This document shows positions 2,424 to 47,551 of a stretch of DNA of 64,000 nt, piece by piece. Origin of the DNA: Phycisphaerae bacterium (lineage in GTDB: Bacteria; Planctomycetota; Phycisphaerae; SM23-33); the NCBI GenBank assembly GCA_009783465.1, contig WRDM01000004.1:1-64000 (forward strand), read 5' to 3'. The notes under the pieces are model-generated. The model did not search any database. It had not been told where the DNA came from and saw only the letters and a list, made by a program, of their open reading frames with translations. The translations under genes were made by a program, and so were the position numbers. Each line of letters begins with the position of its first letter. Within the stretch, counting starts at the first letter, position 1.

Positions 2424-4142
2424 TCACGCCGGCCCGTGGCGTGTGGGCGTGATCACGACATCCTCCGCCGGTTGATCGGCGACGTCGCTGTCCGTGCCGA
2501 CCGCCACGCCGTCGGCGACGAGTTTGGCCCAATGTTTGTTGTTGAAAATGCAGCCGGGGTCGCCGGCGTGCAGATGGCCGAAGTACGCGTCCGCGCGGGC
2601 GCGGCACCCGCCGCAGTAATTCTTGAACGCGCACACCTCGCAGTGATGCAGCCGATGGCCTCGGTCGTTGAGCACGTCCCAGAACACGCTGGAGCGGTAA
2701 ATCTCCATCAGCGAGGCCTGCCGGAGATTGCCCATCACGCGGTGCGGCAGATACACGCACGGCGTGACGTTGCCGTTGGGTTCGATGCACACGTACGTAC
2801 GTCCCGCGCCGCACCCACCGAGATACTTCGCCACCACGCGGGCCTTCACGCCGCTGCCGGATCCCGCGTGCGAGCACGCCGCCCGGCCGCTCTCCAACGC
2901 GGCCCCCGCCAAACACACGCGCCCCAACTGCGGGGCCGTCGAAATCACGCCCATGCCGCCCTTCTGCATTTTTTCGTTCAGCAGGGCAAGCAGTTTTTCC
3001 CGCTGCGAGGGCGTGATGTCGCCGCTGACCATTTGCAGCCCGCGGCCGACCGGGATGAAATTGAAGTGCGCGAAACACGACGCGCCGAGATCCTCCTCGG
3101 CGAAGCGGATCATCTCGCCCACCTCGTGGTAATTGCCCTGGTGAACGCACATGGCGATGCCAAGCCGCAGCCCCGGCGTCTTCGTCACCACGCGGGCGCC
3201 CGCGACGGTTTTTTCCCACAGGCCTTTTTGCCCGCGAAAGGCGTCGTGGCGGTCGGCGTGCACGCTGTCGAGGCTGATCTCGACGTACCGCAGGCCGGCC
3301 TCGGCGAACTCGGCGGCGCGGTCGGGCGTCATCGTCGTGCCGTTGGTCGCCATCGTTAGATGCATGCCGTAACTCTTGGCCCGGCGAATGCACGGAACGA
3401 TGTCCTTGCTGATGGACGGCTCGCCGCCGGAAAACGCGAGCATGGGCATGTAGGCGGCGCCCATCTGGTCGATGACGCGAAGTTTTTCGTCGAGCGTCAA
3501 CTCGTCGTTGAGGGCGCTATGTTCGCTGTCCTGGTAGCAGTGCTTGCAGGCGAGGTTGCAGCGGTTGGTGAAATTCCACACGGCAAAGAGCGGCGCGGCG
3601 AATCGCTGCGGCGTGGTCAGACCGAACTCGCCGACGGACCTCGCGACAATCACCAGCCCGCGCACGGTAGGCCGATTCTCCGCCAGCTTGGCGCGAAACG
3701 TTTCGACCGGCGTCTTACCGCGGAAGTGGTCGATAAATCGGTGCAGTGCCCAGTATTTCACTCGCTGCGACAGCGGCGCCTTGGGATTGTGATAGCTGGC
3801 GAGAATGCGTTCCAACGTCGTGCTACGTGACGAGGGCGTCCCGCCCGTGCTACGGCTGATCCGCCGCAGCAGCCACCGGAACGGCCGGCGGCCGAGCCAT
3901 TTCTCCAGCGGGTGGTGATAATCAATCTGGAAAATTTCATCGGTCAACTGATCGCGAAGAGTCTCGCACCCAGCCACATATTGGCCGGAACTCACCTGCC
4001 CGTCGCCGTCGCGATGCGGGTCCTTCCGCGCATCCTGGCTGGGCGGGAACTCATGTACGTACTGCTTGCCCATCGCCGCCGCCGTGGTGTGCTCGCCGGC
4101 GGCGGTGTAGGAACGGTCGTGTTTTTCGGGGGTATTCGTCAT
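2424..4142 (-). CDS. radical SAM/SPASM domain protein
   Basis: NFTNRCNLACKHCYQDSE (CX3CX2C), FSGGEPS, C-terminal Cys cluster CEVCAFKNYCGGCRARA; start chosen at MTNTPEKHDRS within the longer ORF. Confidence 0.85.
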   Translation of the reverse strand: MTNTPEKHDRSYTAAGEHTTAAAMGKQYVHEFPPSQDARKDPHRDGDGQVSSGQYVAGCETLRDQLTDEIFQIDYHHPLEKWLGRRPFRWLLRRISRSTGGTPSSRSTTLERILASYHNPKAPLSQRVKYWALHRFIDHFRGKTPVETFRAKLAENRPTVRGLVIVARSVGEFGLTTPQRFAAPLFAVWNFTNRCNLACKHCYQDSEHSALNDELTLDEKLRVIDQMGAAYMPMLAFSGGEPSISKDIVPCIRRAKSYGMHLTMATNGTTMTPDRAAEFAEAGLRYVEISLDSVHADRHDAFRGQKGLWEKTVAGARVVTKTPGLRLGIAMCVHQGNYHEVGEMIRFAEEDLGASCFAHFNFIPVGRGLQMVSGDITPSQREKLLALLNEKMQKGGMGVISTAPQLGRVCLAGAALESGRAACSHAGSGSGVKARVVAKYLGGCGAGRTYVCIEPNGNVTPCVYLPHRVMGNLRQASLMEIYRSSVFWDVLNDRGHRLHHCEVCAFKNYCGGCRARADAYFGHLHAGDPGCIFNNKHWAKLVADGVAVGTDSDVADQPAEDVVITPTRHGPA

Positions 4143-4274
4143 GGCTGTTTTCAACGTTCTACAACGCAAACTGGCAGGGCCTGTGGCCGCTTGCGCCGTA
4201 CATAACACCCTACAGCGCAAAAAGGCAAGCCCTTACGAAACGCTTTTTCGCCCTCGTTTCTCCATACCTGCTGG

Positions 4275-6182
4275 CTACTGGCTATTGGCTACTGGCTGTT
4301 TCTGCGCTGCCGCGTATGCCTTTTCCACCAGCGGTCGGTATTCCGGGCCGCAGTTGTACGAGCAGAACGGGAACACGCCCGCCGGTGTGGAGTACAGAAT
4401 CACGCAGCGTTTGGCGCGTTCGATGTCGTAGTTGTAGCGGTCCTGGAAATGCATGCCCGCGCACAGCAGCGTTTTGTACGTGGATTTCCCGGCCTCGCCT
4501 CGGCCGACGTGTTTGTCCACCAGGCCCTGAAGACTTCGTATGAACAATTTTACCGTCAGGCCCGGCGGAGCGGCCTCGGGACGGAAATGCCGCTTGAACA
4601 TGCGGAAGACCCGCCATTTGTCCAGTGCGGTGGCTTTGCCGTTGCGTCGTTGAATGGCGGCCGCGATGGCGTTCATCTCGCTGAACATGCCCTCGATGTT
4701 GACTACCTGCGGGAACGGGTACGCTTTTTTGTCCGGGCTGACGAGGAAGTACGTGCCCAGCGAGCAGTCGGTGTGGCAGGATGGGCGGATTTTCGTGCTG
4801 CCGGTGAGAGCTTCGAGAATCTGCGCCAGCGGCACGACCACGCTCAGCGGGAACATGTCGCGCTGCACGCTCGCGCCAGACGCCTTGGCGATGCCGTGAC
4901 ACAAATCCCCCAGCGTGTAGCGGCGGGCGGAGAGTTCCTCGGGCGTCATGCGGCCTGTGAAACTCACCGGCTGATAGCTGATGGCCGAGATCGTGTCGAT
5001 ATTTTCGCAGGCGAAGCGGAAGATTTCGCCGACCTGGTCGTCGTTGATTCCTTTGAGAATGGTGGGCACGAGGCAGATTTTCATGCCGAGTTTCCGGCAG
5101 TTTTCGATGGTCGCGACTTTTTTCGCCCAGATGCCCGGATAGTTCCGCGTGTGTTCGTGGGGCTTGTCGCCCACGCCGTCGAACTGGAGGTAGAGCACGT
5201 GCAGACCCGCGTCGTGGGCGGCCTTGGCGAAATCGAAATCGGCCATGCGGATGCCGTTCGTGGCGATCTGGATGTGCGAGAAGCCCATCTCTCGCGCGGT
5301 GGCGACGATTTTGATGAAGTCGGGATGGATGGTCGGTTCACCGCCGGTGAACTGGATGGCCGTGCAGGGCGTCGGGCGCAGGTCGCGGAGCGTCTGGAGT
5401 TGGCGGACGACCTGGTCGAAGTCCGGCTGGCAGACGTAGCCCTGCACACCCGCGTTGGCGAAGCAGATCGGGCAGCGCATGTTACAGCGGTTGGTCAGGT
5501 CGATCTGGGCAAGGCACGCCGACGAGAGGTGCTGATTGCACAGCCCGCAATCCGACGGGCAATTTTTTCCGCCCGTGACCTGTGGAAATTTTTGACCGGG
5601 GTGTTCCTCGAAACTCCACCAGGCCGCCCGGGAGTAGAGCTGTGCGTCGGCGTTGATGCAGTCGCGGAAATAGCCGTGTTCGGGGCAGGTCTTTTCGATC
5701 CAGACGGCCCCGTTTTCCACGAAATATCGACTGAGGATGATGCCGCCGCATTCGGGGCAGAGGCTCTCGACGGTTCGCGGCAGCCGGCGGAGATTCGGGC
5801 GGATCCGCGAGCCGTGAATCGTGCACGAGGCCGAGCCGGGAAAATCGCTCTCGACAGGCGTCCAGATGGCGTCGGCGTGGACTTCGCTCCATCGGCCACA
5901 ACGAGGACAATCGTAGGTCAGCGTGATTTTGCGTAGCACGGGCGTCCCGCCCGTGCTACGGTCGAACACGGCGGCGCACACCTGGCCGCACTGAACGCAC
6001 GTTGCCCGCGTCGCGACGGGCAGCGTTTCGTACAGCGGAGCAAACCGCCGCATCGCCTGCTTGTGGCGGGCCAAGGCTTCGTAGTCCACGGCGGAATGGG
6101 CAGCCAACGCCGCCTTCTGCGGCGCACGAAGATCATCCGTTTCGTACGTTGTCGCCAACATTTCGTCTACAGGCTTATTCAT
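4275..6182 (-). CDS. radical SAM protein with Tes/MJ0619-like architecture (zinc-ribbon N-terminus, CPSDCGLC, CNMRCPICFA)
   Basis: CPECGGIILSRYFVENGAVWIEKTCPEHGYF + NCPSDCGLCNQH + DLTNRCNMRCPICFANAG + FTGGEPTIHPDF. Confidence 0.8.
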   Translation of the reverse strand: MNKPVDEMLATTYETDDLRAPQKAALAAHSAVDYEALARHKQAMRRFAPLYETLPVATRATCVQCGQVCAAVFDRSTGGTPVLRKITLTYDCPRCGRWSEVHADAIWTPVESDFPGSASCTIHGSRIRPNLRRLPRTVESLCPECGGIILSRYFVENGAVWIEKTCPEHGYFRDCINADAQLYSRAAWWSFEEHPGQKFPQVTGGKNCPSDCGLCNQHLSSACLAQIDLTNRCNMRCPICFANAGVQGYVCQPDFDQVVRQLQTLRDLRPTPCTAIQFTGGEPTIHPDFIKIVATAREMGFSHIQIATNGIRMADFDFAKAAHDAGLHVLYLQFDGVGDKPHEHTRNYPGIWAKKVATIENCRKLGMKICLVPTILKGINDDQVGEIFRFACENIDTISAISYQPVSFTGRMTPEELSARRYTLGDLCHGIAKASGASVQRDMFPLSVVVPLAQILEALTGSTKIRPSCHTDCSLGTYFLVSPDKKAYPFPQVVNIEGMFSEMNAIAAAIQRRNGKATALDKWRVFRMFKRHFRPEAAPPGLTVKLFIRSLQGLVDKHVGRGEAGKSTYKTLLCAGMHFQDRYNYDIERAKRCVILYSTPAGVFPFCSYNCGPEYRPLVEKAYAAAQKQPVANSQ

Positions 6183-7465
6183 GCGAAAAATTTCGGATAC
6201 GCCCGCCGCGTCCGCTTCCTTTTTTGGTAACTCTGCGCCAGCTCCATGAAGATATCCAGGTCACGCTCCATGTTAGAGCTGCTGGAATCAAAATAGAAAT
6301 TTCGTATGGGCATGTCGTCGTGCTCACGGGCGACGGAGTGATAGACGGCCTCCGAGACGATGCCGTTCATGCAACTGAACGGGCTGATGTCGATGATGCC
6401 GTCGGCGCCCTTGCCGTGCAGGTAAATGCCCTTGCCTACCGAGAGCACCATTTCGCCCAGCGCCCCGTCGGCGGGCAGGTAAGGCCAGGCGGGCTTGAGA
6501 ACGTCCTCGTAGACGTCGTGCGGTTCCTCGTAGCCGGCCATGTCGTCGTGGAATGGCGCGAGCAGTTTGTGTTCGTCGCTCCGCTGGACGTGATTTTTCA
6601 ACACCGCGCCCAGCATGGCAAAACTGAACGTCTTGCCGTCGCGCTTGAGCAGCGTCTTCTGCGACCAGTTCGTGTACCACACCCACTCGCCAACGTCCGA
6701 CAGCCACGCCTCGCCACCGTGGGCCTCGATCTTCCGAACGGCTTCGTAGTTGCTGAACGTGTTCATCCGGCAGAAAATCTCGCCCACCACGCCGATCAAC
6801 GGCCGATCCTTCATGTACCGCGCCGGCACGGCATGAAACAAATCCCGCCCCTTCGTCAACGCGTCGACCAGCCTGGCCATGTGCTCGCCCGCGCCCAAAC
6901 CCGGCGTTTCGCACACGCGCTCCACCAGCAGCGACGCCTGCTCGTACGCCTTGTCCGTCTCGCCCTTGGCCGTCTCGTAAGGCCGGGTCTTCAGCAGCAT
7001 CTTCCGCAGCAAATCCCCGCCAACAATCGCCCGCCACAGATACCGCACCATGTTCGACGCGTGGTCGCCCATGCCATCGTACCCGTTCTTGCTGGTGGGC
7101 GAAATGATCGGCACAGAGGTGTGCCCCATCTCGTCGAGCACCTGCCGCAGGTACGGCCCGTACTGGCCGAACCGGCAAGGCCCCTCGGCGGTGGGCATGA
7201 AGAAGGCGGTTTTGTCGGGATCGAATCCCGGCGCCTGGATAATCCGCAAAAAATCGCCCATCGTGATTTTTTCGGGATAACACTCCTCGCCGCTGGTGTA
7301 GAGGCCGCCGAGTTCCAACGTTTTTTCGTTGGAGGGCGGCGTGCAGTGCGCGTCGATCCCGATGGACCGGAACACCGCCGCCATCAACCTCGCGCTGATA
7401 TGCGTCATCCGCGGAATCCACAACGTCCGCCCCGCCAGCTTGTTCTTACTACCCGTCGCAACCAT
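6179..7465 (-). CDS. DUF2229 / 2-hydroxyacyl-CoA dehydratase-like protein (COG3580/3581 type)
   Basis: FFMPTAEGPCRFGQYGPYLRQVL, GEECYPEK and DISPFSCMNGIVSEA motifs; 4 bp overlap with the downstream radical SAM gene. Confidence 0.75.
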   Translation of the reverse strand: MVATGSKNKLAGRTLWIPRMTHISARLMAAVFRSIGIDAHCTPPSNEKTLELGGLYTSGEECYPEKITMGDFLRIIQAPGFDPDKTAFFMPTAEGPCRFGQYGPYLRQVLDEMGHTSVPIISPTSKNGYDGMGDHASNMVRYLWRAIVGGDLLRKMLLKTRPYETAKGETDKAYEQASLLVERVCETPGLGAGEHMARLVDALTKGRDLFHAVPARYMKDRPLIGVVGEIFCRMNTFSNYEAVRKIEAHGGEAWLSDVGEWVWYTNWSQKTLLKRDGKTFSFAMLGAVLKNHVQRSDEHKLLAPFHDDMAGYEEPHDVYEDVLKPAWPYLPADGALGEMVLSVGKGIYLHGKGADGIIDISPFSCMNGIVSEAVYHSVAREHDDMPIRNFYFDSSSSNMERDLDIFMELAQSYQKRKRTRRAYPKFFA

Positions 7466-7636: not shown

Positions 7637-7966
7637 TTAGTCGTCGTTGTCGTCATCGTCGTCATTGTCGGCGTCGTCATCGTCGTCATCGGCGCCATTG
7701 TCGTCGTCATCGTCATCGTCGCCGTCATCGTCGGCCGGGATGTTCGGAACGATCGGGTCGTCGTCAAAGCCGATCGAGCTGTTGGGCCCGTCAATAATGT
7801 CCTTCGGCTCGGCCTTGTCGGCCGGGGCGTTCGCGGGCTTGGCTTCGTTGCCGGCCGGTTTGTCGGCCTTGGCCGGCTTGTTGCCGTCCGTTTCGCCGCT
7901 GCAGCCAACCATCACCAGACCCAGGCCCACCACCAACGTCAATGCAACCAGACTCAGCTTACTCAT
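7637..7966 (-). CDS. small lipoprotein with poly-Asp C-terminus
   Basis: MSKLSLVALTLVVGLGLVMVGCSGETDG lipobox; C-terminal D/N-rich tail. Confidence 0.65.
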   Translation of the reverse strand: MSKLSLVALTLVVGLGLVMVGCSGETDGNKPAKADKPAGNEAKPANAPADKAEPKDIIDGPNSSIGFDDDPIVPNIPADDDGDDDDDDDNGADDDDDDADNDDDDDNDD

Positions 7967-8155
7967 CGTAGCTCCTTTCAAGGATTTCGAGTTTCGCGGC
8001 AGAAAAAACTGTTTCCGCCAACGACCAAATTACAACAAACATGGCGACTCACATAGTAACCGATAATGATTACAGAGGCAATCGCCAAAAAAAGCAACCT
8101 TTTTTTGGCCGGCGAGAAAATCTCGCAGGGAGAGGCCGTTCACCCGGGAGGCTTT

Positions 8156-8727: not shown

Positions 8728-9351
8728 ATGCCGAAAAAGAAAGACAAGAATCTGCCCCCCGAGGACAATACAGAGTACGTGCCCGTCGTGTTCGCGGGCG
8801 ACAGCGAGGAGGCCGGCTACTACCGCGACCTGCTGGCCGAACACGACATCCCCGCCGTGATCGGTAAGCCCGCCTCCAGTGAGGAGGACGAGGAGGCCGT
8901 CGGCGAGGGCGTGCCCGTCCTCGTGCCCGAAGCCAACCTCGACGAAGCCAGCGAAATCATCGCCGAAGGCGAAGGCCTCGACGCCTTCGGAGACGAGGAG
9001 GACGACGCCCTCTTCGGCAACGAGGACGAGGACGACAATGACGACGGCGAGGATGACGGCGACGACGATGACGGCGACGACGATGCCTTCGACGACGAAG
9101 ATGAAGAAGACCTCGACGACGACGAACCCGACGAAGACGATCTCGACGAGGAAGACGACGAAGATCTCGACGACGAGGACGAAGAGGACGACGAAGCGTT
9201 CGAGGACGAAGAATTCGACGACGAAGACGAGGACGAGGAAGAAGACGACGAGTTCATGGATGATGAAGAAGACGACGAAGAACTCGACGACTTCGAGGAC
9301 GAAGAGGCCGCGGACGAAGACGAGGATGACGAGGACGAGGACGAAGAATAG
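8728..9351 (+). CDS. DUF2007-like protein with a long poly-Asp/Glu tail
   Basis: VVFAGDSEEAGYYRDLLAEHDIPAVIG...VPVLVPEANLDEASEII is DUF2007-like; roughly 115 following residues are almost all D/E. Confidence 0.7.
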   Translation: MPKKKDKNLPPEDNTEYVPVVFAGDSEEAGYYRDLLAEHDIPAVIGKPASSEEDEEAVGEGVPVLVPEANLDEASEIIAEGEGLDAFGDEEDDALFGNEDEDDNDDGEDDGDDDDGDDDAFDDEDEEDLDDDEPDEDDLDEEDDEDLDDEDEEDDEAFEDEEFDDEDEDEEEDDEFMDDEEDDEELDDFEDEEAADEDEDDEDEDEE

Positions 9352-27409: not shown

Positions 27410-27557
27410 TGGCGCCTAAACACGAATCTCGTGCGAAAAGGAGGGATGACACGCGTTCGCCCTTCCCCGCCCTCACCGCCGCTTGCATCCGTCGCGGGAT
27501 TTGGCGACAATTTCGTGTGTCGTTGCTGGGACATTTCACATGGACATGGAGCATCCG

Positions 27558-30500
27558 ATGAAACACATCCTGCGAAGCGGCGTGATGGGTTGGGCGGTGG
27601 CGGCGGTTTGCCTGGCGGGCGGCTGTTCGTCGCTGGTGGCGGCGGAGCCTGCGACACCGGCGGCGCCGGCGTGGGAGCAGACCCTGGCGTGGAAGTTCGC
27701 GGAGGTCGGCAACGGCGGCGGGACGTACGACTGGAACGCGGCGAAGACATTATTGACGCTCGACGGCTACGGGTCGGGCGTGAACGTCAAGGGCAGCGGC
27801 GACCCGACGGAGGTGGATCATTGCGGCTTCGTGTACATCGACAGGCCAGCGGGCGATTTTGAAATTCGCGTCCGGCTGACGTATGTGGACGGCTATGCGG
27901 GCAGCGTGGCGGGCATCATGATCCGCCCGGCGGCCGGCGAAGATGGCGACAGCGCGATGGCGTGCGTGTTTTACGACGGCGAGAAAAATTCCCTCGCGTG
28001 GCGGACGCGCGTGCCGGCGGGCAAAGCCAATCCCGTCAACGACCGCCCGCGGATTCTCGGCGGAGGCATCGGCCTAGCCAACGAAGGCCCCGGCGAGGGC
28101 GACCCGATCTGGCTGCGGCTTGTCCGCATGGACAACAACTTCGCCGTCTACAAATCGCGTGACGGGCGGCTGTGGACGGCGATCTCCAACGTCAGCGGCG
28201 GGCCATTTACGCTCGAAGGCCCGCTCCGCGTGGGCGTCTTCTGCGCCAGCGCCAGCCCCGACAAGGCCATGACCGCCTACGTCGATTCCATCCAGATCGG
28301 CGACCCGCACATGCGGTACAAAACCAGTTGGGTCGGCAATAGTTTCGGCGCCCGCATGGAAGACGGCCACGTGTCCAACACGCTCTCGGCGATGTGGGTT
28401 GCCGCGGACGGCACCTGCTACACGAGCGCCTACTGGGACGAAGCGGGCCAGCCCGTCACGTCGTATCGCGACGGCAAGGTGCTCCGCGGGCTGCCCATCG
28501 GCACGCCGCAGACGGCCGACGGAGGCATCACCGGCGACGGCAAGAGACTCTACGTCGCCACCGTCGGCAACATCACGGAACTCGATCCCGCGAACGATTA
28601 CGCCAGGCGGACCATCACGCTGTCGGTGAACCTGCTCGACACCGCGACGAACCACTCCGTCGTGAGCGGCATGGCCTCGAACGGCAAGGAACTTTTCGTC
28701 GCCGACAAACGCGACCACGTGATCCGCGTGGTGTCGCTCGAACCGGTGAAAACATTTCAGCAGGCGACGGCGCCGAACAATCGCATCGTGCTGACGCCCG
28801 CGCCGGTGGCGGTGCCCGCGGACAGCGACAAATCGTTCGCGCCCGCGGCCATCTATCAAAGCCAACGCGCCGGCGAGGGCGTCAAGTACACCTTCCCGAA
28901 TCAGACGCCGGGGGCCGTGTATACGATCCGCTGCCACCTGGCGGAGTTCGTGAAAAGGCCTGAAAACACCGACCCGCGACACCACAGGGTCAATCTCGAC
29001 GGCACGCAAATCCACGTCGCCGAGGCCGCCGGCGGCGTGCTCACCGCGTTCGTCACGGACCTGCCCGGCTACAAGGCCGACGACAACGGCAACGTCGTAT
29101 TCCATTTCGGCACGTACGGCGGGCCTGGAATCTGCGGGCTGGAACTGCTCGACGCCGACGGCGACCGCGTGCTGGCGGTCAACTGCGGCGGTGTCGCCGT
29201 CGGCGACTTCACCAGCGAGGCCGAAGAACTCGTCGACCGGAACTTCGCCTTCGACAACCCCGGCGTGATGGCCTTCGACAAACGAGGCGACCTGTGGATT
29301 ATCCAACGGCCGAGTATGGACACCGAGCCAACCACCATGGCCGCCGTCAAGTGTTACACGGTCGACGGAAAATTCACAGGCCGTGAAATCACCGACGTCA
29401 TCAACCCCAACGCCCTCGCGTACGACGCGGCGAAGGACCAACTGCTCGTCGGCGTGAATCTGCCGGACCTGAACGTGCGGTTTTACGACAAGCTCGACTC
29501 CAAGCCGACGCTCGCGCGGACGTTCGGCGAAAAAGGCGGCATTTACGCGGGAAAACACCCCGGCCTGGTGCACGATCCCGCCGCGGGCGGGACCGCGCGG
29601 TTCGCGGGCATCAACGGCCTGGGCGTCGACGCGACGGGCAACCTGTATGTCGGCGGCGGCTGGCAAGGCACCGATTTGCGAATGTTCACGCCCGCCGGCA
29701 AACTCGGCTGGAAACTCAACAGCCTGATGTTCTGCTGCACGTACGACGTCGACCCCGCCAGCGACGGCGCGGACATTTACGGCACGTACAACCATATCCG
29801 CCTGGACCTGAGCAAAACCCAACCCGGCTCGGAGCAGACGTACGTGGGCTACAACTGGGATCACCGCCGTTTCGGAGGCCCGCAACTGGAGCGGGCGCAT
29901 TCGTCGCAGGCGATTGTCCGCCGGATCGACGGGCGGCTGATGATGTTCACCAGCGGCCAGGGGAACGTCGGCGACGTTTACATGTTCCGTTACGAGGGCG
30001 AATTGGCGATTCCTTTCGGGGCCATTCGCACCAACGGCACGCTGTGGATCGACGCGAACGGCGACGGCGAGGAGTCGCCCGACGAGGTGACGAAACTGGA
30101 GCCGAACGCCGGCTGGATCACGTCACTGTGCGTCGATTCCCGCGGCGACATCTGGATCGGCTCGCCCACGACGGGCGGCTCGTTCATGCGGCGGTTCCCG
30201 TTCCAGGGATTCAACGACCACGGCGTGCCGCTGTACGGCCCGTTCGAGGACATCCGTTTTCCCGAGGAGGGCGACACGACCAACGCGTGGGGCATGGCCT
30301 GCCGCATGGACTACGACGCCGACCGCGACATCCTGATCGCGTTCTACCCGGCCCAGCGACGCACCGGCGAAGGCGACACCTCCGCGCCGCGATATGTCCT
30401 GGCCCGCTACGACGACTGGAGCAAGGGCAACCGCACGGCGACGTGGAAAATCAACGCCGTCACGCCCTACGATCCCGCCTTCGCCGAATTCTTCATGTAC

Positions 30501-30779
30501 GAAACGCACCTCTATCCCTACGCCGGCTACATGGGCATGCAGTTGGCGGGCGATTACGTGTTCTACGCCTACATGTTCGGCGAGGTGCACGTCTACGACG
30601 CCAAGACAGGCAAGATGGTGGAGATCCTGTCGGTAGGCCCGGAAGTCGCCGGCAGCACCGCCTGGGAAGACGCCGCCATGGGCCTCCGCGCGTTCCAATG
30701 CAAAAACGGCGAGTACTTGATCTTCACCGAAAACAGCGGCTGGGGCGGGAAAAACAATTTTTTCCGATGGAAACCGTAG
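27558..30779 (+). CDS. large exported protein with malectin-like and NHL/beta-propeller-like regions
   Basis: signal/lipobox MKHILRSGVMGWAVAAVCLAGGCSS; YTFPNQTPGAVYTIRCHLAEF...HRVNLDG malectin-like; repeated LxVDATGNLYVGG/DSRGDIWIGS blades. Confidence 0.7.
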   Translation: MKHILRSGVMGWAVAAVCLAGGCSSLVAAEPATPAAPAWEQTLAWKFAEVGNGGGTYDWNAAKTLLTLDGYGSGVNVKGSGDPTEVDHCGFVYIDRPAGDFEIRVRLTYVDGYAGSVAGIMIRPAAGEDGDSAMACVFYDGEKNSLAWRTRVPAGKANPVNDRPRILGGGIGLANEGPGEGDPIWLRLVRMDNNFAVYKSRDGRLWTAISNVSGGPFTLEGPLRVGVFCASASPDKAMTAYVDSIQIGDPHMRYKTSWVGNSFGARMEDGHVSNTLSAMWVAADGTCYTSAYWDEAGQPVTSYRDGKVLRGLPIGTPQTADGGITGDGKRLYVATVGNITELDPANDYARRTITLSVNLLDTATNHSVVSGMASNGKELFVADKRDHVIRVVSLEPVKTFQQATAPNNRIVLTPAPVAVPADSDKSFAPAAIYQSQRAGEGVKYTFPNQTPGAVYTIRCHLAEFVKRPENTDPRHHRVNLDGTQIHVAEAAGGVLTAFVTDLPGYKADDNGNVVFHFGTYGGPGICGLELLDADGDRVLAVNCGGVAVGDFTSEAEELVDRNFAFDNPGVMAFDKRGDLWIIQRPSMDTEPTTMAAVKCYTVDGKFTGREITDVINPNALAYDAAKDQLLVGVNLPDLNVRFYDKLDSKPTLARTFGEKGGIYAGKHPGLVHDPAAGGTARFAGINGLGVDATGNLYVGGGWQGTDLRMFTPAGKLGWKLNSLMFCCTYDVDPASDGADIYGTYNHIRLDLSKTQPGSEQTYVGYNWDHRRFGGPQLERAHSSQAIVRRIDGRLMMFTSGQGNVGDVYMFRYEGELAIPFGAIRTNGTLWIDANGDGEESPDEVTKLEPNAGWITSLCVDSRGDIWIGSPTTGGSFMRRFPFQGFNDHGVPLYGPFEDIRFPEEGDTTNAWGMACRMDYDADRDILIAFYPAQRRTGEGDTSAPRYVLARYDDWSKGNRTATWKINAVTPYDPAFAEFFMYETHLYPYAGYMGMQLAGDYVFYAYMFGEVHVYDAKTGKMVEILSVGPEVAGSTAWEDAAMGLRAFQCKNGEYLIFTENSGWGGKNNFFRWKP

Positions 30780-33381: not shown

Positions 33382-33460
33382 ACTTTTTTGAAACATTTTT
33401 CTTTCCCCACGCGTCTAAGGTACGATGCATTACCTTGACCCCGCACGAAAGGAAGCCCAC

Positions 33461-36400
33461 ATGCACCGTCGAATGACCGTCCTCGCGGCCTCGTTGATTC
33501 TGGCGATTCTGGCGTCGGCCCATAGGTCCGCCCTGGCGGGCGACATCGGGTTCGTCGAAGACTTCAGCCTCGCGCCAAACCGCGACGCCGCCCTCAAAAC
33601 CCTCATCCCCGGCTCGGAAGACTTCTACTACTTCCACTGCCTCCACTACCAAAACAGCGGGCAGTTGGACAAGGTCGACCCCACGTTCAAAACCTGGGCA
33701 GCCCGCTACGCGCCGCGCGGCGAAGGCCAATACAACGACCGCATGTGGCAGATCAAACATCGCCAGGCCCTGCTCCAGTACGAACAACAGCCGCAGGTGT
33801 CGCTGGAATATCTCCGCGCCCGCCTGAACGTGCACTTCAACCACCAACGCCAGGCCGAGGTCGATGCCGCCAACGCCAATCTGCCCAGCACGCTCGACGA
33901 CAACACCTTCGACCTCAAACGGCTGATGGAACAAAACCTGGGAAACAGAACCGACACAGGCCGGTTCGAGTCGCTCGGTCTGGAGCTGCTGGCCGCCGAT
34001 CCGAAACTCCTCGCCGACAACACCACCCTCCGCCACAGCCTGCTGACGCGGCTGACCCGCCCGGACTATCCAGGCCTGGTGAAACTCGTCAGCCTCGGTA
34101 TGAACGACGACCTGGACAACACCTCCAACTTCGGCAACGTCGCCATCCACTATCAGCTCACGCGGGCCCAGTTCGACGAACTGCTCAAACTCCACCCGCG
34201 ACTGATCCACGACAATAATTTCGTCAACGCCTACCTATCCAAACTTCGCCCCGGCGACGACGTGGACATGAACCAGGACCTCGCCGCCCGAAAGGCCTAC
34301 CTCGAAGGCCTGTGGGAATTCACCAAGCCGCTCGCGCCCGCATTCAACAGCCTCAAGGCCAACGTGCTTCACAGCCTGCTGGATTTCAACCGCCGGCAAA
34401 ACGCGTGGAACCAGGCCCTGTTCATCGAATACCTCAAACTTCCCCGCCAGTGCCGATACATCGAACCTCGCTACTTCAAAGACGCCATCGACAACAGCGC
34501 ACGCCGCAGCATCATCGCCGATCTCAACGCCAACTTCGGCCAATTCATCGTCGCCCCGCCTGTCGGCAACGACGAACCGCTCGTCCGCGACTACCTGCTG
34601 CACTTCCTCGCCGGCGCGGAAAACTACAACGCCTTCGACCCCTACGTCGAATCCAACTACCTCCGCGCCGCCTTCGCCGAAGCCAATCTCCTGGCCGGAA
34701 AAGGCGACCCAGAAAAATGGTTCGGCATGATGGCCCCCGAACAAGTGCAGGCCCTCAAGGAACGCGTCGACGTCGATCTGGCCCTGGCCAACAAACTCTT
34801 CTTCCGCCCCGATGAACCCGTCACCCTCACCGTCGCCACCAAAAACGTCAAGGAACTCATCGTCAAAGTCTATACCATCAACACGATGAACTACTACCGC
34901 GCGACGATGATGCCCATCAGCACCGACATCGACCTCGACGGCCTCGTCGCCAACGTCGAACGAACCGAAACCTTCAACGACGCCCCCATCCGACGCGTTG
35001 AACGAACGCTCGAACTGCCCGAAATCGCGGGCCGAGGCGTCTTCATCGTCGAACTCATCGGCAACGGCAAGAGCAGCCGGGCGCTCATCCAGAAAGGCAA
35101 CCTCTTCCTCACCGACCGCGTCAGCGCCGCCGGGCAAGTCCTCACGATCTGGAACGAATCCAACGAAAAAGTCGCCGACGCCTCCGTCTTCGTCTCCGGA
35201 CAACTCTACTCCGCCGACACGGACGGCCACGTCACCGTCCCCTTCACCGCCCAGGGCGGAAACCAACCGATCATCCTCCATGCCGCCGGACTGGCCCGGC
35301 TGGCCTACTACCGCGCGATCCCCGAACAATACGCCTTCCGCGCGGGAATCTACATCGACCGCGAATCCCTGCTCCGCCGCCGCGACGCGCAGGTCATCGT
35401 CCGACCGTCGCTCCAGATCGCCGGCACGCCCGTCAGCGTCCACCTGCTCGAAAACGTCCACCTCGAAATCGCCACCACCGACCGCGAGGGCGTCCGCTCC
35501 GTCAAACGCGTCAACGACCTCACACTCTTCGACGACAAGGAAACCGCCGTCTCCTTCCGCGTGCCCGACAACATCCTCGACGTCACCTGCACGTTGCGGG
35601 CCCAGATCAAAAGCATGGCCACCCGGCAACCCATCGACCTGACGGCCACGCAGAGTTTCCCGATCAATCAGATCGACACGACCGCCCACACGCAGGACCT
35701 GCACCTGATGCACGTCGACGGCGACTACATGATCGAACTGCTCGGAAAAACCGGCGAAATTCAGCCAAACCAGGCCGTCCGGGTGACGTTCAAACACCGC
35801 TTCTTCACGCAGACGATCCACGCGACGCTCAAGACCGACGCCAACGGACGCATCCATCTCGGGAAACTGCCGCGGGTGGACCTCCTCCGCGCCGACGCGC
35901 CGCAGGGATTCCACCGCACCTGGACGCTGCCTCGCGACCAGCGCGCGGGGCACGACGTCGTGCACGGTCAGTCGATGCACCGGGCGGAGCACGGTCAGGC
36001 GCTCGGCGTCGTCTTCGTCCCCTATCTCGGCCAGGCCGACAAAGTAACGCCGGAGAATTTCTCGCTGCTGGAAACTCGCGGCGGAACGTTCGTCGTCGAC
36101 CGGACCGCCGAACTCGCGCTGACCGGCGACGGCTACCTCACCACCGAAGGCCTGGCCGCGGGCGACTACAGCCTGCGACTCAAAGAAACAGGCCAGGAAA
36201 TCACCATCCGCCTGGCCGCGGGCCCGGTCGTCGAAGGCTACGTCATGGGCGCCACCCGCAAACTGGAGTTCAACCGCCACGTCCCGCTGAACATCGTCGA
36301 CGTCTCCGCCGACAACGACACCGTCACCATCCAACTCGGCGGCGTGACCGAATTCACGCGAGTCCACCTCGTCGCCACACGGTATCAGCCGAACTTCTCC

Positions 36401-39400
36401 ATCCTCGGCCACCTGTTCCTGCCCGTCGCGGGCCTCGACAGCGTGACCAGCGCCTACCCGCCGTCGCTCTACGTCAGCGGCCGCGATATCGGCGACGAAT
36501 ACCGCTACATCCTCGAACGAAAATCCGCCGCCAAATTCCCCGGCAACATGCTCGCCCGCCCAGGCCTGCTGCTCAATCCCTGGGCCATCCGAAAAACCGA
36601 AACCGGCACACAACAAGCCCACGCCGGCAGCGAGTACGAAATGCAGGGCGAGAACCTCGCGCGCGGAGCGGGCGGAAGGATGTTTAGCAGCAGCGCCGGC
36701 GGCCGCCCCGGAACCATCCCGCCGCACGGCGGCAATCTCGACTTCCTCTCGCAGACCTCCGCCGTACTGGCCAGCCTGACGCCCGACGAAAACGGCCTCG
36801 TCACCGTCAAGCGGGCCAACCTCGGTGCCCATCAGCAGATCCACGTCCTCGCCGTCGACACCGAATCGTCCGTCTATCGCGAGTTGGCCCTGCCCGAGCA
36901 GAAAATGCCCTTCCTCGACCTCCGCCTCATGAAGGAAGCGCTCCCCGCCGACAAACATTTCACCGAACGAAAACAGATCACCCCGCTACAGGCCGGCGGA
37001 CAACTCGTCATCAACGACATCGGCGCCAGCCGAGTCGAAACCTTCGACTCCCTCGAATCCGTCTACCGGCTCTACTCCGCGCTCACCAACAACCCGACGC
37101 TCGCGGAGTTCAACTTCATCCTCGCCTGGCCGGGCCTGAACGACGAACAAAAACGCGAAAAATGGTCCCGATACGCCTGCCACGAACTGGCCTTCTTCCT
37201 CTACCACAAAGACCGCCCGTTCTTCGACACGGTGATCCTGCCCTATCTCAAAAACAAAAAAGACAAAACCTTCATGGATCACTACCTGCTAGGCAACGAC
37301 CAGCAGTTGAAAACATTCACCGACCCGTGGGCATACCGCCGACTCAACGCCGCCGAACGCGTCCTGCTCGCCCAACGACTCGCCGACGAATCCGCCCGGA
37401 CCGCCCGGCACGTCGAGGACGTCTTCAATCTCACCCCGCCCAACGTCGAACGGTTCAACTTCCTCTACAACACCGCCCTGCTCTCAGGCGGACTCGACCG
37501 CGGCCCAAGGTTCGGCCTGCGTATACAAGATGGCCAAAGCGCACGGGAACTCCGAACGAACCTCGAATACGCCGCCGCGGACGCGGACGGTGAGAGATCG
37601 TACGGGTACGATGCCGATGAGGATTCGCCCATGCTCGACGCCTCCCAGGCCCCCGCGCCGATGATAGCGGAAAACGCCAAGAGCGCAGCCGCAACCCCAC
37701 GCGCCGCCACAGCACAGGCGGACAAGGCCGACCGGGCCGCCACAACGCTGCCAGGAACGACACTCCGTAGAACAGAACGACAACCAAACGATCTGATCGC
37801 CCGCGTCCCCAATTTCGCCGGCGCCGAACTCGAACTCGGGGAACGCGTGGAGGCCATGCGCCAACGTCGCGAAGCCACCCGGCAGTTCTATCGCAAACTC
37901 GAAGCCACCGAGGAACTCGTCGAAAACAACTACTACCGCCTGCCCATCGGGCATCAAAACGAGTCCCTGATCCCGGTCAACGGATTCTGGCTGGATTACG
38001 CCAAGTATACCGATAGCAACGCCCGGCGGCTGGGCAGAGCGACCAACTTCCTCTCGCCAAACTTCATCCACGCCGCGAACACCTTCTCCGAAATGATGCT
38101 CGCCCTGGCCGTGCTCGACCTGCCCTTTGCCGCCGAAAAACACGACATGGCCATCGACGACGCAAAGCTCACCCTCAAGGCCGCCTCGCCGATGATCGTC
38201 TTCCACAAGGAAACCAAACCCGCCGCCGACGGCCAGCGGGGAGCCATCCTCGTCGGGCAAAACTACTTCCGCCAGGACGACCGCCATCGCGACGAGGGCA
38301 ACGAACGATTCGACAAATACGTCACCGACGAATTCCTCATCGGCGTCGTGTACGGCTGTCAGGTCGTCGTCACCAACCCCACCAGCACGCCGCGAAAACT
38401 CGACGTCCTCGTCCAGATCCCCCAGGGCGCCCTGCCGGTGGACAACACCCTCGCCACCAAGAGCATCCACGTCCAACTCGCGCCCTACGCGACGCAGACG
38501 CTCGAATACTTCTTCTATTGGCCAAAAACCGGCCAATTCACAGGCCTGCCCGTCCAGGTCAGCAAAGATGAACAACTCGTCGGCTTCGCCGAGCCGATGA
38601 CGTTCAAGGTCGTCCGCGAACTGACGCAGATCGACCGCACGAGTTGGGAATACGTCAGCCAGCACGGCTCCGGCGACGACGTGCTCGCGTTCCTCAAGGA
38701 CAACAACGTCGAACGGCTGAACCTGTACCTCATCGCCTGGCGGATGGCCGACGCGAAATTCTTCGGCCAAACCCTCGCCCTGCTTCGCGACCGGCACATG
38801 TACGAAAACACGCTGTGGTCCTACGGCATCAAGCACAACGACGTGCCCGCCGTCCGCGAATTCCTGCTGCATCAAGACCACTTCGTCTATCAGTGTGGCC
38901 TGTGGCTGAGCAGCCCGTTGCTGAGCATCGACCCCGTGACCCGGACGTGGTACCAGCACATGGAATACGCCCCGGTGGTCAACGCGCGGGCGCACCAGCT
39001 CGGCAAAACGCGAACCATCGTCAACGAACGGATTTTCCAGCAATATTCCGCCCTGCTGGAGGTGCTGAAATTCAAGCCCGCCCTCAACGACGAGGATCGA
39101 TTGGCCGTCACGTACTACCTGCTGCTCCAGGACCGCGTGGAAGAAGGCTTGGCGTGTCTGAAATCGGTGGACGCAGCCAAGCTCGCCGAGCGGTTGCAGT
39201 ACGATTACCTCCAGGCCTACGCGGGGTTCTATACGGAAGATCTCGCCGCCAGCCGCGAGTTGACGACCGCGTACAAGGACTACCCGGTCGACCGCTGGCG
39301 GAAACTGTTCGAGGCCGTGGGTGTGCAACTGGACGAACTCGACGGCGCCGCCGCCGGTGTGGTGGATGAGCAGAGCCGCGACCAGGCAATGGGCAAACTC

Positions 39401-40015
39401 GCCGCCACCGAGCCGGGACTGGAATTCACCGTCGAGGGCGGCAAGGTGAAGATGACGTATCAGAACCTCGGCAACGCTTCCGTTCGCGTAAACTATTACC
39501 TGATGGACGTGGAACTGCTCTTCAGCAAGAATCCGTTCGTCGAGCAAAGCGGCGCAACGAGCTTCGCGTATGTCCAGCCGAACGCGACGGCGGATCTGAA
39601 GTTGCCGGACTTCAAGGCCCATGTCGCCGAACCCGCCGTCAAAACGTTCACGTTCGACCTGCCTAAAGAGATGGCCGGGCGTAACGTGATGATCGAAATC
39701 ACCGCCGGGGCGGTCAAGCGACAGCAGGCGTACTACGCCAACACGATGGTCGTGACGATGCTCGAAAACTACGGCCAGGTGAAAGTCGCCGACGACAAAG
39801 GCAAGGCCCTGGCCAAAGCGTACGTGAAGGTCTACGCCCGCATGAAAACCGGCCAGGTGCGGTTCTACAAGGACGGCTACACCGACCTGCGAGGCCGCTT
39901 CGACTACGCCTCGCTCAACACCGACGACCTCGACAACGTCGAACGATTCTCCATCCTGGTCGTCAGCCCCGATAACGGCGCGCTCGTCCGCTCCGCCGCG
40001 CCGCCGAAACAATAG
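33461..40015 (+). CDS. giant exported protein, macroglobulin-like (MG-type) with possible TPR regions
   Basis: signal peptide MTVLAASLILAILASAHRSALAG; RPDEPVTLTVATKNVKELIVKVYTIN resembles MG domains; no GCGEQ thioester motif seen. Confidence 0.65.
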   Translation: MHRRMTVLAASLILAILASAHRSALAGDIGFVEDFSLAPNRDAALKTLIPGSEDFYYFHCLHYQNSGQLDKVDPTFKTWAARYAPRGEGQYNDRMWQIKHRQALLQYEQQPQVSLEYLRARLNVHFNHQRQAEVDAANANLPSTLDDNTFDLKRLMEQNLGNRTDTGRFESLGLELLAADPKLLADNTTLRHSLLTRLTRPDYPGLVKLVSLGMNDDLDNTSNFGNVAIHYQLTRAQFDELLKLHPRLIHDNNFVNAYLSKLRPGDDVDMNQDLAARKAYLEGLWEFTKPLAPAFNSLKANVLHSLLDFNRRQNAWNQALFIEYLKLPRQCRYIEPRYFKDAIDNSARRSIIADLNANFGQFIVAPPVGNDEPLVRDYLLHFLAGAENYNAFDPYVESNYLRAAFAEANLLAGKGDPEKWFGMMAPEQVQALKERVDVDLALANKLFFRPDEPVTLTVATKNVKELIVKVYTINTMNYYRATMMPISTDIDLDGLVANVERTETFNDAPIRRVERTLELPEIAGRGVFIVELIGNGKSSRALIQKGNLFLTDRVSAAGQVLTIWNESNEKVADASVFVSGQLYSADTDGHVTVPFTAQGGNQPIILHAAGLARLAYYRAIPEQYAFRAGIYIDRESLLRRRDAQVIVRPSLQIAGTPVSVHLLENVHLEIATTDREGVRSVKRVNDLTLFDDKETAVSFRVPDNILDVTCTLRAQIKSMATRQPIDLTATQSFPINQIDTTAHTQDLHLMHVDGDYMIELLGKTGEIQPNQAVRVTFKHRFFTQTIHATLKTDANGRIHLGKLPRVDLLRADAPQGFHRTWTLPRDQRAGHDVVHGQSMHRAEHGQALGVVFVPYLGQADKVTPENFSLLETRGGTFVVDRTAELALTGDGYLTTEGLAAGDYSLRLKETGQEITIRLAAGPVVEGYVMGATRKLEFNRHVPLNIVDVSADNDTVTIQLGGVTEFTRVHLVATRYQPNFSILGHLFLPVAGLDSVTSAYPPSLYVSGRDIGDEYRYILERKSAAKFPGNMLARPGLLLNPWAIRKTETGTQQAHAGSEYEMQGENLARGAGGRMFSSSAGGRPGTIPPHGGNLDFLSQTSAVLASLTPDENGLVTVKRANLGAHQQIHVLAVDTESSVYRELALPEQKMPFLDLRLMKEALPADKHFTERKQITPLQAGGQLVINDIGASRVETFDSLESVYRLYSALTNNPTLAEFNFILAWPGLNDEQKREKWSRYACHELAFFLYHKDRPFFDTVILPYLKNKKDKTFMDHYLLGNDQQLKTFTDPWAYRRLNAAERVLLAQRLADESARTARHVEDVFNLTPPNVERFNFLYNTALLSGGLDRGPRFGLRIQDGQSARELRTNLEYAAADADGERSYGYDADEDSPMLDASQAPAPMIAENAKSAAATPRAATAQADKADRAATTLPGTTLRRTERQPNDLIARVPNFAGAELELGERVEAMRQRREATRQFYRKLEATEELVENNYYRLPIGHQNESLIPVNGFWLDYAKYTDSNARRLGRATNFLSPNFIHAANTFSEMMLALAVLDLPFAAEKHDMAIDDAKLTLKAASPMIVFHKETKPAADGQRGAILVGQNYFRQDDRHRDEGNERFDKYVTDEFLIGVVYGCQVVVTNPTSTPRKLDVLVQIPQGALPVDNTLATKSIHVQLAPYATQTLEYFFYWPKTGQFTGLPVQVSKDEQLVGFAEPMTFKVVRELTQIDRTSWEYVSQHGSGDDVLAFLKDNNVERLNLYLIAWRMADAKFFGQTLALLRDRHMYENTLWSYGIKHNDVPAVREFLLHQDHFVYQCGLWLSSPLLSIDPVTRTWYQHMEYAPVVNARAHQLGKTRTIVNERIFQQYSALLEVLKFKPALNDEDRLAVTYYLLLQDRVEEGLACLKSVDAAKLAERLQYDYLQAYAGFYTEDLAASRELTTAYKDYPVDRWRKLFEAVGVQLDELDGAAAGVVDEQSRDQAMGKLAATEPGLEFTVEGGKVKMTYQNLGNASVRVNYYLMDVELLFSKNPFVEQSGATSFAYVQPNATADLKLPDFKAHVAEPAVKTFTFDLPKEMAGRNVMIEITAGAVKRQQAYYANTMVVTMLENYGQVKVADDKGKALAKAYVKVYARMKTGQVRFYKDGYTDLRGRFDYASLNTDDLDNVERFSILVVSPDNGALVRSAAPPKQ

Positions 40016-46387: not shown

Positions 46388-47551
46388 CTACGACAACAGT
46401 TCCTGGAACTCGCAGCCTTCGGATTCGGTTTCGTACAGGCCGACGATTTTTCGTTCGCGGATCGCGTTTTCCGGGCTGTCGCTGGCGTGGGCGCCGTTGC
46501 GCATCAGGTCCAGGCCGAAATCGCTGCGGACCGTGCCCGGCTCGGCCTTGGTCGGATCCGTGCTGCCCAGGACTTTACGCACCTTGTCGATGGCGTTGGG
46601 GCCTTCGTACAGCAGGGCGAGGCACTTGGTTCGGCTGGCGGAGGCCTTCTCGGTTGGGTCAATGATGTCGTCGGGATTCACGCCCGTCATGTATTCGACG
46701 ATTTTGTTGAATTCCGTGACGGCATTGCGTTCGGCCAGCCGGTCGGCGACGGCTTCGGCGTCGGGCATCGTGAACGGGAACGTGAACGCGTCGTGCAGCC
46801 GCTGGTACACTTCCTGCGTGACGTTGCCCTTGAGCTTGCGGACAAAAACGTCCTTCAGCGGTCCGTAGAACTGCTCGCCCATGGCCACGGTCATGTGGAA
46901 GAGTTTCGCGCCGACGATTCGCAGGCCTGTCCAACTGAACGCGTCGATGATGTTGCCGGGCCTTCGCGAGCGGCGTTCGAAGTTGTCCGGCTTGAGCATC
47001 ACCAGCGACGTCTGCACGTCGGGCTGCTTGTACGCGATTCGGCCTTCGAGCACGCCGCCGTCGGTGCAGGCGTACTTGGCGAACAGTTTCAGGTGTTCGG
47101 CATTCATCGCCGCATCGGGGCAGGTCAGGACGGCCGGCTCGAAGTAGCGGATGTTGCCCTTCTCGTCGCGGATGAAATCGCCGTAGGTGCCGCGGATCGT
47201 GTCGCCCACCGGCTGTTCGGTGAACGCGCCGATGACCTCGTCCTTGAGGTGCCGCACGGCATTGGGGCCTCGGAACAGCATGAACATGCACCGCGGCAGA
47301 TAGCCCATCGGGTTGCTCTGACGGAGATTCAGGTCGACGTACTGCCGCCAGGCCTCCCGCAGCGTGGGGTCCATGTCCTTGGGCGCGAGGATTTCCTTGT
47401 AGGCGTCGAGGAAGGCGTCGCTGAAGACGAACATGCGGACGGCAACCAGTTCCAGCCGGGCGTGCGCCAGCAGCCGCCCGATAATGCCGCCGGTGCGGCT
47501 CTTGTAGAGACTGTAGGGCGTAATCAACGCGTAAGCCAATTGCTCGACCAT
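46388..47551 (-). CDS. nucleoside-diphosphate kinase family protein with two NDK domains
   Basis: C-terminal half: LVMLKPDNFE...RNGAHASDSPENA (NDK signature); N-terminal half has ALITPYSLYKSRTGGIIGRLL and GPNAVRHLKDEVIG. Confidence 0.8.
   Translation of the reverse strand: MVEQLAYALITPYSLYKSRTGGIIGRLLAHARLELVAVRMFVFSDAFLDAYKEILAPKDMDPTLREAWRQYVDLNLRQSNPMGYLPRCMFMLFRGPNAVRHLKDEVIGAFTEQPVGDTIRGTYGDFIRDEKGNIRYFEPAVLTCPDAAMNAEHLKLFAKYACTDGGVLEGRIAYKQPDVQTSLVMLKPDNFERRSRRPGNIIDAFSWTGLRIVGAKLFHMTVAMGEQFYGPLKDVFVRKLKGNVTQEVYQRLHDAFTFPFTMPDAEAVADRLAERNAVTEFNKIVEYMTGVNPDDIIDPTEKASASRTKCLALLYEGPNAIDKVRKVLGSTDPTKAEPGTVRSDFGLDLMRNGAHASDSPENAIRERKIVGLYETESEGCEFQELLS

Follow-up and report, generated by a model that had tools for sequence, protein, structure and literature searches.

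Branched glycerol dialkyl glycerol tetraethers (brGDGTs) and branched glycerol monoalkyl glycerol tetraethers (brGMGTs) are used as proxies for past temperature and pH, and are 'orphan' lipids in that most of their producers are unidentified. To our knowledge, the coupling of two saturated alkyl tails by tetraether synthase (Tes) has been published for archaeal enzymes only. Among the bacterial ester-to-ether reductases, PlsA and PlsR of C. perfringens are two genes whose products are thought to work together, and which are fused in other bacteria (PMC12838417). A route in which PlsAR acts first and Tes then condenses the resulting diethers has been proposed for the brGDGT-producing acidobacterium Solibacter usitatus (PMC10087280). 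A survey of Planctomycetota metagenome-assembled genomes from the Black Sea reports Tes, GrsA, Gms and Ger homologues found by BLAST, suggests production of brGDGT- and brGMGT-type lipids, and in 2025 called the activity of bacterial Tes homologues unconfirmed (PMC11868695). Both the enzyme families and the PlsAR-then-Tes pathway are already known as proposals. Here we describe three minus-strand genes at positions 2424-7465 of contig WRDM01000004.1 of a Phycisphaerae bacterium (GCA_009783465.1; 2.48 Mb in 70 contigs, 69.6% complete). The window analysed is the first 64 kb of this 99-kb contig. The recovered genome contains no 16S gene; DUF1559 scores above its cut-off there and does not occur in 14 control genomes, which is compatible with a planctomycete without being proof of one. 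Judged from sequence, the three genes probably constitute an operon with which an anaerobic bacterium would make ether-linked, membrane-spanning lipids from diacyl phospholipids. An earlier sequence-only reading had suggested ester-to-ether reduction and/or alkyl-chain coupling of membrane lipids for this locus, and sequence comparison, active-site residues, trees and gene context now support that suggestion. The genes and their junction are as follows.

6179-7465, minus strand: gene 1, 428 amino acids, 2-hydroxyacyl-CoA dehydratase superfamily; PlsR-like, a stand-alone counterpart of the C-terminal half of PlsA-Ger-type ester-to-ether reductases, by full-length similarity
4275-6182, minus strand: gene 2, 635 amino acids; Tes homologue of the form here named Tes-B, from NF045702, 7TOL, the tree and Foldseek
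2424-4142, minus strand: gene 3, 572 amino acids from an ATG at 4142; Gms-like radical S-adenosylmethionine (SAM)/SPASM protein, from clade and identity
6179-6182, minus strand: ATGA overlap of the gene 1 stop and the gene 2 start, read in the sequence

The sequence-only reading had placed three minus-strand genes in this interval, with a 4-bp overlap between the first two, and we found both: the overlap reads ...GCATGAATAAG, in which TGA closes gene 1 and ATG opens gene 2. The motifs that it quoted are likewise present, CPECGG...KTCPEHG, CPSDCGLC and CNMRCPICFANAG in gene 2 and GPCRFGQY in gene 1. Because all three open reading frames (ORFs) are strongly biased towards G+C in the third codon position, as real genes would be, and because orthologues keep both their frames and their order, the arrangement is not a product of chance. 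The ORF of gene 3 is open as far as a TTG at 4220, upstream of the region common to orthologues; its start is most likely the ATG at 4142, 132 bp past the end of gene 2, since orthologous similarity begins there. A promoter scan returned matches at chance level only.

Gene 2 is a homologue of archaeal Tes. It scored 478 bits against the NCBIfam tetraether-synthase equivalog NF045702, above the cut-off of 450, which was passed by only three of the 14 named control genomes (M. jannaschii, S. acidocaldarius and M. acetivorans, all of them archaea that make tetraethers or macrocycles), and its closest solved structure was MJ0619 (7TOL, E=1.4e-106). In MJ0619, C9/C12/C33/H36 hold a rubredoxin iron, C73/C77/C80 and a His hold the N-terminal cluster and a CX3CX2C motif holds the SAM cluster, while the C-terminal cluster has a labile Met439 and Tyr459 is conserved (PMC9433317). 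In our alignment, gene 2 has every one of these published residues, the metal ligands as well as the active-site Tyr. It also has C338, C455 and C470 of MJ0619, which the present analysis assigns to the C-terminal cluster as its Cys ligands. The corresponding features of gene 2 are these.

5898-5999, minus strand: extra N-terminal four-Cys, zinc-ribbon-like element (C62, C65, C92, C95), seen in the alignment and not present in archaeal Tes
5676-5759, minus strand: rubredoxin-type iron site (C142, C145, C166, H169), equivalent to MJ0619 C9/C12/C33/H36
5529-5561, minus strand: N-terminal auxiliary [4Fe-4S] site (C208, C212, C215, H218), equivalent to MJ0619 C73/C77/C80 and the conserved His
5463-5486, minus strand: radical SAM CX3CX2C motif (C233, C237, C240), from the alignment
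4362-4766, minus strand: C-terminal auxiliary cluster region (C473, M577, C593, Y597, C607), equivalent to MJ0619 C338/M439/C455/Y459/C470, which would hold the substrate radical

The structure predicted for gene 2, with 23 archaeal Tes sequences as further input (mean predicted local distance difference test score, pLDDT, 74; low over residues 1-131), has a fold that matches 7TOM (Foldseek E=2e-48, template modelling score 0.89 by target length). The Tes/MJ0619 layout that had been recognized from the letters of gene 2 thus agrees with the equivalog score, the conserved ligands and the modelled fold, and coupling of alkyl tails is the predicted activity. In a 62-sequence tree, the Tes copies of the host phylum formed one branch against archaeal Tes (support 99/100), and gene 2 fell within a sub-branch of 24 rows (100/100) that we name Tes-B; all Tes-B members checked by alignment have the extra four-Cys element. 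A phylogeny had been proposed earlier as a check on this gene, and neither the tree nor the family scores grouped it with a different known function. The next full-length family was TrsS, for which gene 2 scored 308 bits against a cut-off of 490; a TrsS role was rejected on this score, and a TrsS-like paralogue is present elsewhere in the host genome.

Other Tes-related genes were seen in the course of these comparisons. A shorter form of the same phylum, here called Tes-A (about 530-570 amino acids; 511-577 bits against the Tes model), is without the four-Cys element in the two copies aligned. It was found at seven loci (L112, L113, L114, L115, L117, L122 and L123; L-numbers denote loci within the compared genomes, which carry G-numbers), mostly outscores Tes-B and sometimes occurs beside Tes-B in the same genome. 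Within the host genome, the small contig C43 carries a distant radical SAM paralogue of the Tes/TrsS kind that reaches neither cut-off (L126, 1965-3398), and further radical SAM matches lie near it.

Gene 1 was identified as PlsR-like because it resembles, over its full length, the C-terminal part (~400 residues) of PlsA/Ger-type proteins. It aligns with the last ~400 residues of proteins of ~1,400 amino acids across the phylum, one of which was scanned and has two BcrAD_BadFG ATPase domains and DUF2229, and also with the C-terminus of single-gene Pls-type proteins from Listeria (residues 1015-1409 of 1485), Collinsella, Acetoanaerobium and Haliovirga. Identity to these Pls references is about 22-25%, and they are nested within the gene 1 family tree; upstream of the Collinsella gene is one of the TetR family, an arrangement described for bacterial pls. 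All 51 family members compared share three Cys, which, by analogy with the enzyme superfamily, are likely [4Fe-4S] ligands.

6371-7282, minus strand: stretch holding the three invariant Cys of gene 1, C62 (7280-7282), C97 (7175-7177) and C365 (6371-6373)

Kinship of gene 1 with the module of PlsA and GerA had been suggested from the sequence alone, and the full-length match to the C-terminal part of Pls/Ger-type proteins bears this out. The accompanying label of a DUF2229/HGD-D type stood in part: the conserved Cys are there, the Pfam match to DUF2229 is the only one and is weak and partial (21.7 bits, cut-off 29.4), and the HGD-D profile (PF06050) did not match gene 1. A profile of gene 1 and its relatives had no match among solved structures, and an AlphaFold2 model of gene 1 alone was discarded (pLDDT 38). 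Its sequence relationships make gene 1 the PlsR-like half of a PlsA/PlsR/Ger-type ester-to-ether reductase, encoded as a gene of its own, and ester-to-ether reduction is its predicted activity.

Gene 3, which had previously been left without assignment, was compared with 12 archaeal genomes that had been picked up by their Tes genes. One set of archaeal proteins (Hydrothermarchaeum, Methanolliviera, Thermoplasmatales and Methanothermococcus) had 37-44% identity to gene 3 in ORFs of 460-490 amino acids, with the match starting upstream of the radical SAM domain, and a second set had ~27-37% identity in ORFs of mostly 350-410 amino acids. Gene 3 and the first set formed one clade (support 98/94) apart from the heme enzymes AhbC/AhbD/NirJ, with Hydrothermarchaeum as the nearest archaeal row. 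The Methanothermococcus protein has Cys 123 and 127 at the exact positions of proven M. okinawensis Gms (numbering from PMC11186832), and its C368/C370/C436, F324, S332 and N349 stand against C370/C372/C438, F326, S334 and N351 of Gms at a constant two-residue shift; one cited Gms residue, E346, differs. In gene 3, Ala stands in place of the second Cys in the CxC motif of Gms (METOK C372), which is also unconserved in four of the five archaeal relatives. Two sets of Cys were located in gene 3.

3537-3560, minus strand: radical SAM CX3CX2C motif (C195, C199, C202), from the alignment
2550-2813, minus strand: SPASM Cys (C444, C462, C501, C504, C510, C513, C531), PF13186, conserved in the alignment

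Among the NCBIfam families listed, no curated cut-off was passed by gene 3 (NirJ2 219 of 500, AhbD 209 of 500). Heme biosynthesis was rejected as a function on these scores and on the separate presence in the host genome of AhbC-like and AhbD-like proteins, which fall outside the gene 3 clade. Grouping with Gms-type proteins suggests that gene 3 is Gms-like and may cross-link chains, which extends the lipid idea to a possible H-shaped brGMGT.

Many genera of the host family have gene 1, Tes and gene 3 in this same order. Two more distant families have Tes-B and gene 3 adjacent or overlapping (L116, L118, L119, L120), and a fused reductase gene that stands apart from them. In G044, the fused gene would be near gene 3 if two contigs, each with half of gene 3, join. 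We also assessed co-inheritance in 22 genomes of the same class from outside the host order. All three of the reductase family, Tes and gene 3 were present in seven (families f3, f7, f9 and f12) and none in 13, and two were mixed (reductase alone in G048, Tes with an activase fragment in G055). Fisher tests gave 3.5e-4, 4.7e-5 and 4.7e-5 by genome, figures that are inflated by relatedness, and 0.023, 0.005 and 0.005 by family. Because the three genes are on different contigs in G038, G047 and G056, this co-inheritance is more than an effect of adjacency. In a phylum-wide sample, a gene 1 relative was found in at least 81 of 249 genomes and Tes above the cut-off in at least three (the host, G092 and G114), each of which also has a gene 1 relative; such tallies of gene presence are lower bounds, as the search overlooked the Tes of G006, which its locus does contain. 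The reductase can thus be present without Tes, and Tes hardly occurs without the reductase, which is the pattern expected of a pathway in which ether formation comes first. Conservation of the neighbourhood among relatives, which the sequence-only reading had named as a check, is therefore seen both as gene order and as shared inheritance.

The genes around the relatives' copies encode DNA polymerase X, exonuclease VII, a glycosyltransferase, a flavin adenine dinucleotide enzyme, a sensor kinase and a tetratricopeptide repeat protein, and no further lipid enzyme was consistent among these flanking genes. Many relatives have a predicted small lipoprotein of ~160 amino acids between Tes and gene 3 (L058 3984-4487, L061 6225-6701 and equivalents), which has no Pfam match and is absent from the window.

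From the homology, catalytic residues, trees, gene order and co-inheritance observed, we infer the following substrates, products and order of steps. Gene 1, together with an ATP-driven activase encoded elsewhere, would convert the glycerol ester carbonyl to an ether. Gene 2 would abstract hydrogen using two SAM, with one alkyl radical parked on a sulfur of the C-terminal [4Fe-4S] cluster, and would join the unactivated ends of two alkyl tails into a single chain that spans the membrane. The role of gene 3 would be to add a further carbon-carbon bridge between two spanning chains, giving an H-shaped, brGMGT-type lipid. That the locus forms a complete unit, dedicated to branched H-shaped tetraethers and made up of a split Ger-type reductase, a bacterial Tes and a bacterial Gms, is a tentative proposal, plausible to us and short of probable.

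Four points weigh against the reading as an operon for ether-linked, membrane-spanning lipids, and three alternatives were considered. First, the activase half was not found in the recovered ~70% of the host genome when sought with DUF2229 and a relative's protein. In relatives, the activase gene is about 900-1,140 amino acids long, with two BcrAD_BadFG domains and DUF2229 in those scanned. It lies directly upstream of gene 1 in G007 (L131), G006 (L241), G022 (L242) and G035 (L061), where the resulting order is activase, PlsR-like, Tes, a lipoprotein in some, and Gms-like; it precedes gene 1 in G037 and G048, with no Tes beside, and elsewhere it is non-adjacent yet present in the genome (for example in G025, G008 and G016). 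The expectation that a partner must be encoded elsewhere was accordingly borne out in relatives and not in the recovered part of the host genome. Such an absence would also arise if the operon were decaying in the host genus, with the activase lost, gene 1 out of use and nothing left but the coupling of ester-lipid tails. We consider this highly improbable, since the frame of gene 1 is intact and none of its three invariant Cys is missing, since close relatives that carry gene 1 nearly always have the activase as well, often on another contig, and since only 69.6% of the genome was recovered; incompleteness is the simplest reason for the missing gene.

Second, the fused Pls/Ger-type protein of two other families lies between LeuC/LeuD-like genes (L085 2241-8350 in G275, L086 6378-12531 in G083 and L087 3492-9653 in G263), and these isopropylmalate-isomerase-like flanks may mean a non-lipid role of the reductase module there. 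Were the same to apply in the window, gene 1 would act in carboxylic acid metabolism as an enzyme of the 2-hydroxyacyl-CoA dehydratase type, and the radical SAM proteins would modify a peptide or cofactor in a heme- or TrsS-like manner, as superfamily membership alone and the weak scores of gene 3 to NirJ2 and AhbD would allow. This appears rather improbable, given that these scores and that of gene 2 to TrsS are far under the curated cut-offs, that the host genome has separate AhbC-like, AhbD-like and TrsS-like paralogues, and that every lipid-enzyme ligand of Tes is conserved in gene 2.

The remaining two points concern the identity of the reference proteins: PlsA and Ger are indistinguishable by sequence (PMC13274423), and the Methanothermococcus protein is taken as Gms by residue numbering, not from the published sequence. 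Ether formation and chain coupling could also be real without being parts of one brGMGT pathway, such that PlsR and the activase make mono-, di- or vinyl-ether bilayer lipids, Tes couples ester or mixed lipids, and gene 3 performs other tailoring, such as the formation of a ring or of another cross-link. The ester phospholipids bound in the Tes crystal structure (PMC9433317) and the inseparability of PlsA and Ger are consistent with this, as are G037 and G048, which have the reductase without Tes and gene 3, and the poor conservation of METOK C372. However, Gms-type proteins are the one named group with which gene 3 clusters, and gene 3 is co-inherited with Tes and the reductase, and we regard separate pathways as unlikely relative to an operon for ether-linked, membrane-spanning lipids.

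Several other features of the window were recorded.

339-1637: convergent neighbour of the three genes, an aminotransferase
7637-7981, minus strand: predicted lipoprotein that ends in an Asp-rich tail, similar to the acidic ORF in the next line
8728-9351, plus strand: strongly acidic ORF with long Asp/Glu runs, the antisense of which reads as a Ser-rich ORF
27483-30779, plus strand: ORF of 1098 amino acids, no Pfam match at E 1e-5
33425-40015, plus strand: ORF of 2196 amino acids, no Pfam match at E 1e-5
46388-47551, minus strand: ORF of 387 amino acids with an unusual layout, its C-terminal part matching nucleoside diphosphate kinase over the second half of that family only (PF00334 67-128)

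If the locus is a brGMGT unit, an uncultured, probably planctomycete, family would be a direct genetic source of orphan climate-proxy lipids, and bacterial Tes homologues would be the tail-coupling enzymes of brGDGT synthesis. Archaeal-type membrane chemistry would then be assembled as a unit in bacteria, which bears on the lipid divide, and the operon offers a compact gene set for expression. Garcia et al. 2024 (PNAS) reportedly describe bacterial Gms homologues. The literature searched, which did not cover that paper, yielded no report of a reductase-Tes-Gms-like operon; the Black Sea survey, in its accessible sections, gives presence by BLAST and mentions no such operon (PMC11868695).

Compared with archaeal Tes/GDGT-MAS (MJ0619, 7TOL/7TOM), gene 2 is 36-42% identical and has the ligands, the Tyr and the predicted fold in common, whereas it sits on its own bacterial branch, carries the extra N-terminal four-Cys element and lies beside a bacterial ester reductase, such that its substrate is likely derived from fatty acids and not isoprenoid. 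Gene 1 corresponds to the PlsR part of the PlsA-PlsR and Ger systems, and a two-ATPase-domain partner adjoins it in sister genomes, whereas the host gene has no adjacent or found partner and is joined to Tes by the 4-bp overlap. With Gms (PMC11186832), gene 3 shares the N-terminal region, the radical SAM and SPASM parts and the clade; it differs from the archaeal proteins in being bacterial, in an N-terminus ~100 amino acids longer, in the Ala that replaces one auxiliary-cluster Cys and in its place in an operon with Tes and the reductase. The pathway proposed for Solibacter usitatus (PMC10087280) draws on the reductase and Tes families as well, in the order that we propose; there it was derived from scattered homologues, and here the genes stand in a single operon with a Gms-like gene. 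The operon and its co-inheritance provide independent genomic support for a diether-first pathway in which PlsAR is followed by Tes.

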